Of a stretch of DNA of 32,082 nucleotides, positions 12,781-21,703 are shown piece after piece. This DNA is from Megasphaera massiliensis (GTDB lineage Bacteria; Bacillota; Negativicutes; Veillonellales; Megasphaeraceae). Position numbers and translations under genes: made by a program. The notes beneath the pieces were generated by a model. That model was not told where the DNA came from, did not search any database, and was given only the letters and a program-made list of their open reading frames with translations. The DNA is taken from contig NZ_HF954537.1 in assembly GCF_000455225.1 (NCBI RefSeq), forward strand, positions 37,093-69,174, written 5' to 3'. Position 1 is the first letter of the stretch, and each line of letters starts with the position of its first letter.

Positions 12781-13130
12781 GTTGAGTATGAAAGGCAATC
12801 GCTAGTGCTTCGGCATTAGAGGAAAGTCCGAGCTCCGCAGGGCAGGATGCCGGCTAACGGCCGGCGAAGGTGACTTTAGGGACAGTGCCACAGAAATGTG
12901 TACCGCCACGCAAGTGGTAAGGGTGGAACGGTGCGGTAAGAGCGCACCAGCGGTACAGTAATGTGCCGGCTAGGTAAACCCCATCTGGAGCAAGACCGAA
13001 TAGGGAAGGGATGAAGCGGCCCGCTGATCTTCCGGGTTGTGTCGCTTGAACATGCTGGCAACAGTATGTCTAGATAGATGATTGCTGCTGCGCAAGCAGT
13101 ACAAAACTCGGCTTACTGATTACTCATCAT
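12781..13130 (+). ncRNA. rnpB: RNase P RNA, bacterial type A
   Basis: Recognised from the conserved core in order: GAGGAAAGTCCGAGCTCC after P1-P3, CCACAGAAATG, GTGGTAAGGGTGGAACGGTG, GGTAAACCCC, GGAGCAAGACCGAATAGG, AGATAGATGATTG and the closing ACAAAACTCGGCTTAC. P1 is formed by TGAGTA (12783-12788) and TACTCA (13121-13126), which sets both ends to within a few bases and gives about 350 nt. It is the catalytic RNA of the ribonuclease that removes 5' leaders from tRNA precursors. It has its own promoter and a terminator just after. Confidence 0.96.
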
Positions 13131-18136: not shown

Positions 18137-18402
18137 CTGTTATGGGAGAGGCGGATATGTTAGCCGCTGAATGATGCGGTGCATCCGATTAAAACGAAAT
18201 GAAATTGTAAAAAATGAAATACTTTCTTACTATGCATACAAAATTGACAAATATGGCATAAAATGAATAAATAAACATAAAATGAATGGATATGTAAAAT
18301 TACTAAGCTGTAAATCGTAAAAAGTTAGTAAATTCACAAAATAAAATGGCTTAATAGAGCCAATGTTTAAAAATAAAGAAATTTTTCACGAAAGACGTTA
18401 CT
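18137..18402. other. AT-rich intergenic region upstream of the first porin gene
   Basis: No gene. Strongly AT-rich compared with its surroundings. It holds a GC-rich inverted patch near 18150-18190, two copies of ATAAAATGAAT (around 18257 and 18279) and, from 18319, sequence conserved before the second porin gene (AAAAAGTTAGTAAATTCAC), followed by GGCT-N6-AGCC. Position and A tracts suggest an UP element for the strong promoter that follows. Confidence 0.5.
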
Positions 18403-18431
18403 TTGACAGGGTAAAAACTAAAATGTATAAT
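18403..18431 (+). promoter_or_regulatory. Strong promoter of the first SLH porin
   Basis: Perfect TTGACA (18403-18408), 17-bp spacer, perfect TATAAT (18426-18431). The predicted start is near 18438. Confidence 0.88.
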
Positions 18432-18437
18432 AATTAC

Positions 18438-18623
18438 AGTGAGTGTGGTGCGCAGGCAGGCAGCACTCGCCCGATAGAGCCGACAAACAGTGTGATTCAA
18501 GGCAGTAAAAGAGAGGAAACTAGGACAACTCGCCAATGAACCCTTGAAGAATACGTTTCGACACTCGCCTGTAACGGTGTAAGGCTTACAGAAACTTCAT
18601 CTTATCGAAAAGGGGTTATACTC
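18438..18623 (+). promoter_or_regulatory. Long conserved structured 5' leader, copy 1
   Basis: About 186 nt between promoter and start codon, closely matching the leader of the second porin gene. Pairings present in both: TTCAAGG (18496-18502) with CCTTGAA (18542-18548), AGTGT near 18490 with ACACT near 18562, GTGC with GCAC near the 5' end, and GAG/CTC inside the central loop. It ends with AAAAGGGG as ribosome binding site. No known riboswitch class is recognised. Confidence 0.55.
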
Positions 18624-19964
18624 ATGAAATCCAAAGTATTAGCAGCTCTCGTAGCAACCATGGCCGTTGGCGCAACTTGTGCTTTCGCAGCGAACCCGTT
18701 TGTCGACGTACCGTCCGACAGCTGGGCTTACAAATCCGTCGTAGAATTGGCTGACGCCGGCATCATCCAGGGTGTTGACGGTGAACATTTCCAGGGCCAG
18801 CGCAACATCACTCGTTACGAAGCCGCTGAAATGGTCGCCAAAGCTATGGCTCACATGGACAAAGCTTCTGTCGAACAGCGTGCCCTCATCAACAAATTGG
18901 CTGATGAATTCGCTGACGAACTCAACAACCTCGGCGTTCGCGTAAGCGCTCTCGAAAACCGCGTCGGCAACGTTAAACTGACCGGTGACGCTCGTGTTCG
19001 CTATCGTTACCAGAAAGACAGCAAAGAAAACGACGCTTCTTGGGATTATCGTGTTCGCCTCCGCGCTAATGCTATGGTCAACAAAAACACGAAGGTTACC
19101 TATGGCATCAGCACCGGCAACCATGCCTTCTCTGACAATGGCAAAGCTGAAGATGAAAACGACATCTTATCGGATATCGCTAAAGTCGACTACAACTTCG
19201 GCGGCGGCGACTGGACTCTCAGCGTAGGCCGTACGGACAAATACGTTATCGGCGGTTCTAAAGGTTATGGCTACAACTACGGCGATATCTTCGACCGCGC
19301 TGAATTGAAGTACAGCGGCGACAGCTTCATGGCTACGGCCGGCTACGGTAAATTTAAGGCTGGCGGTGTTGCAGGTCTTGCAGCTGATCCGTTGAGAACA
19401 GTCTTGCCGGAAGGTCTTGACGGCACCAAGACGGCTTACGGCGTCATCGAAGGCCGCTTCGGCAACGGCACGGCTATCGGCGGTTACTACAACACCTTCG
19501 ACAACGATGAATACAATGCGATTGTAAGAGGTACGGAACTCGATTACCTCTGGGGTGCTTATGCAAGCTTCAACTTCGGCAAAGACTGGAACCTCCTCGG
19601 TAACTACGAACGCGTCAACTACAACAGCAATATCTCCACCTCTAAAGTTCGCAGCGACGAAGATTCCGCTGCCGTTTGGATCGGCCGCCTGACCTACGGC
19701 AAAGCTGTCATGGCTACGCCGAAGACATGGGACGCTTGGGTTGAATACCTCAACGCTGAAGACGGTGCATACATCGGCGGTTCCACCAACTCCTGGAGAT
19801 GGGGCAAACTGGATAACCTCGAATCCTGGGGTGCCGGCATCGACTACACCTTCGCGAAAAACGCTCAGTTCCAGGTCATGCAGTCCTTCGCTTCGAAAGT
19901 TAAAGACGGCGACGGCAGCGATCCGGAAGAACAGACGCGTGCTCAGTTCGTATTCGCATTCTAA
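18624..19964 (+). CDS. SLH-domain outer-membrane porin (OmpM/Mep45 type), copy 1
   Basis: 446 residues. Signal peptide to about residue 23 (AFA-ANPF), one SLH domain about 24-80 (FVDVPSDSWAYKSVVELADAGIIQGVDGEHFQ...ITRYEAAEMVAKAM), a coiled-coil spacer about 82-113, then a porin beta-barrel ending in AQFVFAF with C-terminal Phe. In Negativicutes such proteins trimerise in the outer membrane and bind polyamine-decorated peptidoglycan through the SLH domain, tethering the two layers and allowing diffusion of small solutes. The start has AAAAGGGG 10 bases upstream. Promoter strength and codon use suggest a very abundant protein. Confidence 0.94.
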   Translation: MKSKVLAALVATMAVGATCAFAANPFVDVPSDSWAYKSVVELADAGIIQGVDGEHFQGQRNITRYEAAEMVAKAMAHMDKASVEQRALINKLADEFADELNNLGVRVSALENRVGNVKLTGDARVRYRYQKDSKENDASWDYRVRLRANAMVNKNTKVTYGISTGNHAFSDNGKAEDENDILSDIAKVDYNFGGGDWTLSVGRTDKYVIGGSKGYGYNYGDIFDRAELKYSGDSFMATAGYGKFKAGGVAGLAADPLRTVLPEGLDGTKTAYGVIEGRFGNGTAIGGYYNTFDNDEYNAIVRGTELDYLWGAYASFNFGKDWNLLGNYERVNYNSNISTSKVRSDEDSAAVWIGRLTYGKAVMATPKTWDAWVEYLNAEDGAYIGGSTNSWRWGKLDNLESWGAGIDYTFAKNAQFQVMQSFASKVKDGDGSDPEEQTRAQFVFAF

Positions 19965-19988
19965 TCCTTCCTCATCAAGGAACTTACC

Positions 19989-20019
19989 AAGACCACTCAG
20001 AAATGGGTGGTCTTTTTTT
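19989..20019 (+). terminator. Terminator of porin copy 1
   Basis: AAGACCACTC / GGGTGGTCTT stem, loop AGAAAT, seven T. Confidence 0.9.
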
Positions 20020-20189
20020 GTGCGGACAACGCCTGTGAAAGCCTTGACGAATATCGCATAAAATGAATCAACCAAGATGGATGAGCCTGTACTTGGATGT
20101 AACGTGCAAAAAAAAGTTAGTAAATTCACAAATTAAAATGGCGTATTGAAGCCGATATTTAGAAATAAAGGGATTTTTTACAAGATACT

Positions 20190-20218
20190 TTGACAGGTTA
20201 GAATACAAAATGTATACT
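20190..20218 (+). promoter_or_regulatory. Promoter of the second SLH porin
   Basis: TTGACA (20190-20195), 17-bp spacer, TATACT (20213-20218); one mismatch in the -10 compared with copy 1. Confidence 0.85.
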
Positions 20219-20224
20219 CATTAC

Positions 20225-20413
20225 AAAGAGTGTTGTGCCAAGGCAGGCAGCACGTGACCCGTAGGGCAGACAACGGTGTGATTCAAGGCCGTAACAGAGA
20301 GGCAACCGGGATAACTCGCCAAGGGACCCTTGAAGCATATGTGTTGACACGCGCCCGTGACGGGGGAAGGCTTACAGAAATTTCATTTTACATCGAAAGG
20401 GAGGTTACTATTT
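20225..20413 (+). promoter_or_regulatory. Long conserved structured 5' leader, copy 2
   Basis: About 189 nt. The block GTGTGATTCAAGGC and the later ACTCGCCAA and ACCCTTGAAG are identical to copy 1. TTCAAGG (20282-20288) pairs with CCTTGAA (20328-20334). A local ACGG/CCGT pairing is perfect here but has one mismatch in copy 1. It ends in GAAAGGGAGG as ribosome binding site. Confidence 0.55.
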
Positions 20414-21703
20414 ATGAAAGCCAAAGTATTCGCAGCTCTTGCCGCGGCCATGGCCGTTGGCGCAGCCTGTGCTTTTGCAGCGAACCCGTTTGTCGACGTA
20501 CCGTCCGACAGCTGGGCTTATCAATCCGTCGTTGAATTGGCTGACGCCGGCATCATCCAGGGCGTTGACGGGGAACACTTCCAGGGCCAGCGTAACATCA
20601 CCCGTTACGAAGCCGCTGAAATGGTCGCCAAAGCCATGGCTCACATGGACAAAGCTTCTGTCGAACAGCGCGCCCTCATCAACAAATTGGCTGATGAATT
20701 TGCTGACGAACTCAACAGCCTCGGCGTCCGTGTCAGCGCTCTCGAAAACCGCGTCGGCAGCGTGAAACTGACTGGTGACGCTCGTTTTCGGTATCGGTAT
20801 CAGAAAAACAACAAAGAAAACGATAAATCTTGGGATTATCGTATTCGCCTCCGCGCTAACGCCAGGGTTAACGACCGTACGAAGGTTACGTACGGTATCA
20901 GCAGCACGTACCACTCCTTCGCGGATAATGGCGCAGCTGAAGATGAAAACGATATCACGACCGATATCGCTAAGGTAGACTATAATTTTGGCGGCAAGGC
21001 TTGGAACCTCAGCGTCGGCCGTACGGATCGATATGTCATCGGCGGCAACAACTCCTATGGCTATAACTACGGCGATATCTTCGACCGCGCGGAATTGGCG
21101 TACAAGGGCGACCGCTTCAAAGCTGCGGCCGGCTACGGTAAATTGAAGAAGGGACGCCTGGCAGGGTCCGGCACGGTGGAAGGCGCCAAGACGGGGTACG
21201 GTCTCATCGAAGGTTCCTTCGGCAACGGCACGGCTGTCGGTACGTACTACAATTCCTTCCAGGACACCAACCTCGATGATCTCTGGGGTGCTTATGCAAG
21301 CTTCCTCTTCGGCCGGGACTGGAAGCTCCTCGCGAACTACGAACGGGTCAGCTATGACAAGGCTATCTCTACGGCACGGGGCAACGAAGATTCGGCCGGC
21401 GTTTGGATCGGCCGCTTGACTTACGGCAAGGCCGTCATGGCTAGGCCCAAGACTTGGGATGTTTGGGTTGAATACATCAATGCTCAGGACGGGGCCTATG
21501 CGGTGGGGGCTTTTGGTGCCACCAGCTCTTGGAGACGGATCGGCAAATTGGATAACCTCGAATCCTGGGGGGCCGGCATCGACTATACCTTCGCGAAAAA
21601 CGCTCAGTTCCAGGTCGGGCAGTCCTTCGCTTCGAAAGTGAAAGACGGCGACGGCAAAGATCCGGAAGAACTGACGCGAGCCCAGTTCGTCTTCGTATTC
21701 TAA
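20414..21703 (+). CDS. SLH-domain outer-membrane porin (OmpM/Mep45 type), copy 2
   Basis: 429 residues with the same layout as copy 1: signal peptide ending AFA-ANPF, SLH domain, coiled coil, barrel, C-terminal AQFVFVF. The mature N-terminus through the coiled coil is almost identical, while barrel segments differ and one loop is shortened (KKGRLAGSGTVEGAKTGYG against a longer acidic/neutral loop). Copy 2 has more Lys/Arg in several variable segments (ARVNDRT, YKGDRFK, KLKKGR), which may alter ion selectivity. The ATG at 20414 is supported by GGGAGG and by homology; the longer frame runs into the leader. Confidence 0.94.
   Translation: MKAKVFAALAAAMAVGAACAFAANPFVDVPSDSWAYQSVVELADAGIIQGVDGEHFQGQRNITRYEAAEMVAKAMAHMDKASVEQRALINKLADEFADELNSLGVRVSALENRVGSVKLTGDARFRYRYQKNNKENDKSWDYRIRLRANARVNDRTKVTYGISSTYHSFADNGAAEDENDITTDIAKVDYNFGGKAWNLSVGRTDRYVIGGNNSYGYNYGDIFDRAELAYKGDRFKAAAGYGKLKKGRLAGSGTVEGAKTGYGLIEGSFGNGTAVGTYYNSFQDTNLDDLWGAYASFLFGRDWKLLANYERVSYDKAISTARGNEDSAGVWIGRLTYGKAVMARPKTWDVWVEYINAQDGAYAVGAFGATSSWRRIGKLDNLESWGAGIDYTFAKNAQFQVGQSFASKVKDGDGKDPEELTRAQFVFVF

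Follow-up and report, generated by a model that had tools for sequence, protein, structure and literature searches.

The window, a 32,082-nucleotide stretch of the Megasphaera massiliensis genome (contig NZ_HF954537.1), encodes two OmpM-type SLH porins in tandem, and all coordinates given below refer to its plus strand. The porin genes occupy positions 18624-19964 and 20414-21703; both open reading frames carry an SLH domain scoring over the cut-off, and the listed frame of the second gene begins earlier, at a GTG. Each gene is preceded by a sigma-70-like promoter and a leader of its own. The first promoter, TTGACA and TATAAT with a 17-nucleotide spacer (18403-18431), agrees with the consensus at 12/12 positions, and leader 1, located between this promoter and the ATG (18438-18623), is the predicted 5' UTR of the first gene. 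The second promoter (20190-20218) agrees at 11/12 positions, and leader 2 extends over 20225-20413, its start being placed from the promoter. R1, a covariance model of the Megasphaera-type leader, matches leader 1 at 18477-18572 with 92.1 bits and leader 2 at 20263-20358 with 71 bits. An initial annotation of the window had proposed a leader in front of each porin gene, and both were recovered here behind consensus promoters. A third porin paralogue of the same genome has a similar leader upstream and a fourth has a diverged one. A terminator-like hairpin lies between the two porin genes (19989-20014); four such sites were found, against 3.0 expected in shuffled sequences.

Promoters that agree with the consensus in at least 11 of 12 positions recur in 30/44 related leaders as compared with 1/44 shuffled ones, and the promoters make it very probable that transcription starts just before the first hairpin of the leader, P1. 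This hairpin was placed at 18439-18470 in leader 1 by the minimum-energy fold, and P1-like hairpins in relatives were judged by eye only. The predicted promoter is thus positioned so that the leader would be transcribed.

Upstream of the -35 box there is an inverted repeat, TGGCTTAATAGAGCCA, at 18347-18362, with a looser TGGCGTATTGAAGCC copy at about 20138-20155. Similar GC-rich repeats are found 5' of several related porin promoters (for example L011, L023, L024, L031, L042 and L069). An automated count recorded inverted repeats with arms of at least 6 in 8/40 regions, the shuffled value being 9%. The upstream repeat could be an operator.

Covarying helix of the leaders

Within leader 1 the strand UUCAAGG (18496-18502) is complementary to CCUUGAA (18542-18548), and the two enclose a loop of 39 nucleotides; the same strands occur in leader 2 at 20282-20288 and 20328-20334. 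This helix, here termed P2b, had been described in the initial annotation with a loop of about 40 nucleotides, and it stands at both leaders, with covariation at every pair. We examined 53 regions upstream of porin-family genes in 15 genomes of the genus, which were our own choice among strong matches; the invariant core described below is present in 44 of them and absent from 9. Twenty-six sequences were prepared, two were dropped as identical to others, and the remaining 24 were aligned without gaps. RNAalifold, applied unaided to these 24 related leaders, returned UUCAAGG/CCUUGAA together with a GAG/CUC pairing. Changes on both sides of a pair were seen at 7/7 pairs of P2b, in 39 cells; shuffled alignments gave 9.4, and slid versions no more than 17.

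A larger set of leaders was assembled for duplex tests. L029 was excluded for having no stricter core, a core-to-ATG distance of 50-125 nucleotides left 143 leaders, and removal of near-duplicates left 128. Across these 128 non-redundant leaders, P2 strands pair with their own partners at -25.8 kcal/mol and with permuted partners at -15.5 kcal/mol (z -31.7). By this comparison of sequences, the leaders before both porins are real elements with a shared RNA structure, and the proposal of a structured cis-acting leader of porin genes is borne out by the covariation in homologues. It had been held that a lack of covariation, or transcripts starting just before the ATG, would speak against this proposal; neither is seen in the sequence, because covariation is present and a promoter lies ahead of the leader.

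Outside P2b, an AGUGU/ACACU pairing had been described as common to both leaders. Both strings occur in 2/24 related flanks, leader 1 being one of the two and leader 2 not, and we dropped this pairing as a conserved outer helix. The outer flanks are complementary in general (24 leaders, z -7.5, 0/5000), mostly through other letters. For leader 1 the whole-leader fold uses 18486-18493 and 18551-18557 as the two strands of an outer stem, P2a, and the best flank-only duplex keeps GUGU/ACAC; the choice between these alternatives is unsettled. The GAG/CUC pairing is invariant in all 24 leaders: it is conserved, and since its letters never vary the helix is unproven.

The single-sequence folding energies of the window leaders are no better than those of shuffled sequences (z 0.07 and 0.74). 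We therefore dropped single-sequence folding as evidence, and the structure emerges only from comparison. Likeness of the two copies was dropped as well. The initial annotation had considered the leaders far more alike than their surroundings, but their likeness (77.9%) is not above background when set against 81.0% in the 135 nucleotides upstream, 83.2% in the coding sequence and 116/166 (70%) at fourfold sites. Leaders whose likeness within the window does not exceed that of their surroundings, and single-sequence folds that are not better than shuffled, are what one would expect if the leaders had no function and resembled each other through duplication or homogenisation of the porin genes. 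Compensatory changes across species and a core found in 86/102 genera of the class make this explanation barely credible.

Distribution of the core and the genes downstream of it

Inside the P2b loop of leader 1 lies the invariant core, GAGGAAACUAGGACAACUC (18513-18531), which follows a class-wide pattern and whose GAG and CUC probably pair. The core of leader 2 deviates (GAGGCAACCGGGAUAACUC, 20299-20317), being the sole row with a C there among the 24 aligned, and in a sister genome the equivalent second leader (L022) lacks an intact core. Together these observations suggest that the second-leader copy may be losing the element or decaying.

A narrow form of the core, GAGAGGAAACnnGGnnnACUCGCC, was found in 16 stretches of a named-genome collection, from which the window's own genome may be absent, under titles naming Megasphaera, Anaeroglobus, Colibacter and 'Veillonellaceae bacterium'. 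The R1 model identified 37 places in 16/61 genomes of the order, all within the window's family, and a comparison of coordinates puts 37/37 directly 5' of an OmpM-type gene or gene fragment. Leaders in other families of the order carry a shorter core, GAGGAAACnnGGn(n)nACUC. This pattern is present in 319/379 Negativicutes genomes, representing 86/102 genera, and in its exact form is absent from 60/379; read backwards, it gave 6 matches in Negativicutes, counted by eye. R1 was set aside as a class-wide probe because it reached 18/380 genomes as compared with the 319/379 reached by the core pattern; its two weak matches outside the window's family coincide with core matches. Our genome searches covered the window's phylum, where the core was seen outside the class in 73/384 genomes against 15 backward matches (both counted by eye), with repeated matches in a few families. 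We also considered an upstream open reading frame starting inside the core and dropped it, since many copies have AA, AC, CA or another pair of bases ahead of GG. A tandem OmpM-type array in genome G008 (C33:756903-767905) has three upstream regions without the core (L066, L067 and L068), and the other sampled ones have it.

In these bacteria OmpM porins act both as general pores and as tethers of the outer membrane (PMC10628300). In order to identify the genes that follow the core, we used 119 distinct class-wide copies, namely those on fetched loci, which were partly picked to include isolated copies and are not all matches; 3 have no downstream gene in reach, leaving 116 readable. Genes were called OmpM-type when phmmer against the window's porin gave an E below 1e-8, with start codons picked by script. 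By this measure 103 of the 116 targets are OmpM-type SLH porins and 13 are other genes, comprising one TonB receptor and 12 SLH-less proteins resembling outer-membrane barrels. The clearest non-porin target is the TonB-dependent receptor gene behind the core at L159 (G063:C1). In Pfam searches with 6 of the 13, one was assigned over the cut-off as a TonB-dependent receptor and one matched Porin_4 just under it; two had weak Wzi matches, also under the cut-off, and two had no match. Outer-membrane barrels usually carry a final phenylalanine as their signal, and this residue terminates 75/77 complete target proteins; among the 13 non-OmpM targets, 12 are complete and 11 of these end in it.

Outside the class we selected 20 regions, non-randomly, from families with matches (2 of 22 core matches have no gene in the stretch). 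The 20 copies with a gene include 8 followed by an SLH-porin-like protein on the phmmer measure and 12 that are not. Most of the latter start with a signal-peptide-like stretch, and 7/8 complete ones end in phenylalanine. We read the regulon of the core as outer-membrane barrel proteins, with the SLH-less members so assigned mainly by signal peptide, sequence character and last residue. The earlier suggestion of envelope control is partly right, because the examined downstream genes encode outer-membrane-type proteins, among which SLH porins are not the sole kind. In genomes that lack annotation the core could serve to flag outer-membrane genes, and it is possibly a trace of an ancestral Firmicutes outer membrane.

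Complementarity to the Shine-Dalgarno region

Leader 1 contains a strand (18539-18561), made up of AACCCUU (18539-18545) and UUUCGA (18556-18561), that is predicted by duplex calculation to pair with the Shine-Dalgarno region of gene 1 (18605-18617). In the 128 leaders, the post-core strand paired with its own Shine-Dalgarno region gives -13.44 as compared with -10.28 for permuted partners (z -14.2, 0/5000 permutations). The 5' flank, used as a control, gives z -1.1 (709/5000), and shuffled 3' arms reach -9.65. Leaders of the window's family alone give z -6.0 (36 leaders). The signal is local, being confined to 16-nucleotide segments that start 0 to 30 nucleotides past the core with a peak at +6 (t -8.2); upstream of the core |t| is at most 2.1. 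The helix spans at least 4/6 Shine-Dalgarno-like bases in 115/128 leaders, and its pairing covaries across the class when inspected by eye (CUUAGG/CUAAGG, CCUUGA/UCAAGG, CUCAG/CUGAG and CCUCG/CGAGG). The best duplex of leader 1 with its own Shine-Dalgarno region reaches -12.1 kcal/mol, with 15/128 Shine-Dalgarno regions scoring better, and leader 2 matches its own poorly, 92/128 foreign ones being better.

Such specific complementarity is left unexplained if the leader chiefly shields an abundant mRNA from decay. This role, which we regard as improbable, would fit the P1 hairpin near the predicted 5' end and the description of OmpM1 as the most abundant outer-membrane protein of V. parvula (PMC10628300).

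The first part of the anti-Shine-Dalgarno strand (AACCCUU in leader 1) overlaps the 3' strand of P2b. P2 and the anti-Shine-Dalgarno helix share bases and cannot fully coexist, and two mutually exclusive helices of this kind have the layout of a translational switch. The anti-Shine-Dalgarno pairing shows no preference for P2-paired bases relative to foreign Shine-Dalgarno regions (0.68 against 0.69). When whole leaders are folded, P2 is the more stable in 86/128, and the two folds lie within 5 kcal/mol of each other in 78/128, so that folding alone could tune expression. No effector would then be needed, and the leader would be a passive setter of the translation level, or a thermosensor-like structure, acting through competition between P2 and the anti-Shine-Dalgarno helix. 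However, such a device fails to explain why about 12 core bases, mostly in the loop, are kept in 86/102 genera, and we find it rather unlikely.

We favor, as a reasonably likely explanation, that each leader acts in cis as a translational switch whose core is recognized by an effector. In the 'on' fold, the long P2 stem around the invariant core would hold the anti-Shine-Dalgarno strand and leave the ribosome-binding site free; in the 'off' fold, this strand would pair with the Shine-Dalgarno region. The effector, a small molecule or an envelope-reporting protein, would recognize the core and shift the balance. P2, the invariant core, the matched anti-Shine-Dalgarno strand and the outer-membrane-type genes downstream all come from the comparison of leaders; we infer that an effector exists, that it favors the 'on' state and that cells switch between the two folds. 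In silico, the window leaders favor P2 by 7.7 and 9.5 kcal/mol, for which reason the 'off' state may be rare in them; in the leader of the third paralogue the sequestered form is favored by 4.5 kcal/mol. The initial annotation had missed the invariant core, its class-wide range and the anti-Shine-Dalgarno pairing.

Candidate signals and relation to known systems

The 'SLH motif' is a riboswitch candidate from Thermovirga lienii, predicted to be a cis-regulatory RNA (Stav et al. 2019, PMC6429828). Its published text reports 80 examples, from Synergistaceae, Clostridia and Negativicutes, with SLH genes downstream of about 60%, suggests c-di-GMP, and in the passages describing the motif names no target class beyond SLH genes (PMC6429828). 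The window leaders and the SLH motif very probably belong to the same family, as judged from the published text description, and the window leaders are probable new members of this candidate family. Like the majority of SLH motifs, the core lies upstream of SLH-domain genes (103/116 class-wide copies), and both are found in Negativicutes and in other Firmicutes (here 319/379 Negativicutes genomes and 73/384 other genomes of the phylum); in contrast to the 80 reported examples, the core was found in hundreds of genomes. What is added to the motif's description as consulted is this breadth, outer-membrane targets in general, the anti-Shine-Dalgarno switch, and evidence against c-di-GMP and Hfq. 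The main text of a follow-up study of 26 genomes makes no mention of SLH (PMC8632094), and the words promoter, untranslated and operon are absent from the available text of the OmpM study (PMC10628300). No other publications on such leaders were found among the matches listed in our literature searches.

We examined whether the candidate signals can be produced in these bacteria. GGDEF domains gave 0 matches in the window's genome (99.96% complete) and are absent from 48/61 genomes of the order, of which 45 carry the core (overlap by eye); c-di-GMP is therefore unlikely to be the signal of the core. The c-di-GMP riboswitches, the GEMM families of Rfam, are also located in 5' leaders of surface-protein genes; unlike them, the leaders described here have no Rfam match above threshold, and GGDEF is missing from the majority of the order's genomes. 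Hfq likewise gave 0 matches in the window's genome and is absent from 49/61 genomes of the order, the core being present in 46 of those 49 (overlap by eye), and control by Hfq-dependent small RNAs is therefore unlikely.

In E. coli, small RNAs control the mRNAs of outer-membrane proteins post-transcriptionally, at translation initiation. The switch proposed here would act at the same step, but small RNAs act in trans, whereas this element is encoded in cis on each mRNA, in genomes without detected Hfq. The core itself might be the target of trans-acting small RNAs, as in enterobacterial porin mRNAs, and targets of outer-membrane type with several copies per genome are in keeping with this. Bases within the core differ between copies, however, and would break continuous pairing with a small RNA; the missing Hfq also counts against such control, although an Hfq-free small RNA might be at work. 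On balance we consider targeting by small RNAs quite improbable. The initial annotation had allowed for control by a small RNA; this suggestion is weakened for the Hfq-type form by the lack of Hfq matches in the window's genome. The candidates left for the effector are a small molecule or a protein.

The cis-acting switch that we favor resembles translational riboswitches in its covarying structure, its invariant core and an anti-Shine-Dalgarno strand common to two exclusive helices. It thus has the conserved aptamer-like structure and, in silico only, the expression platform acting on the Shine-Dalgarno region that characterize such riboswitches. The class as a whole binds small-molecule ligands, whereas any ligand here is putative.

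How the amount of outer-membrane protein is set without detectable Hfq is addressed by no publication among the matches listed. One cis element before outer-membrane genes would be a short, testable answer to such Hfq-less control of protein level. More tentatively, and with less confidence than we would place at even, we suggest that a single RNA switch of ancient origin controls the regulon of outer-membrane proteins in the outer-membrane-bearing Firmicutes. Its core would precede OmpM tethers, other porins and occasionally TonB receptors, and would respond to an effector other than c-di-GMP. Such a switch would be a cis-encoded, Hfq-free counterpart of the porin small RNAs of E. coli, inherited together with the outer membrane.

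When the window leaders and 20 class loci were compared with Rfam 15, none reached the gathering threshold of any family, in agreement with the initial annotation, which had recognized no known riboswitch. Sub-threshold matches were Retro_dr1 (E 6.1) for the window leaders and isrJ, BSnc120 and sX6 in L239 (E 0.03-0.04). Elsewhere in the window, at 12783-13130, lies the class A RNase P RNA, matched by Rfam over its full length with 282 bits.
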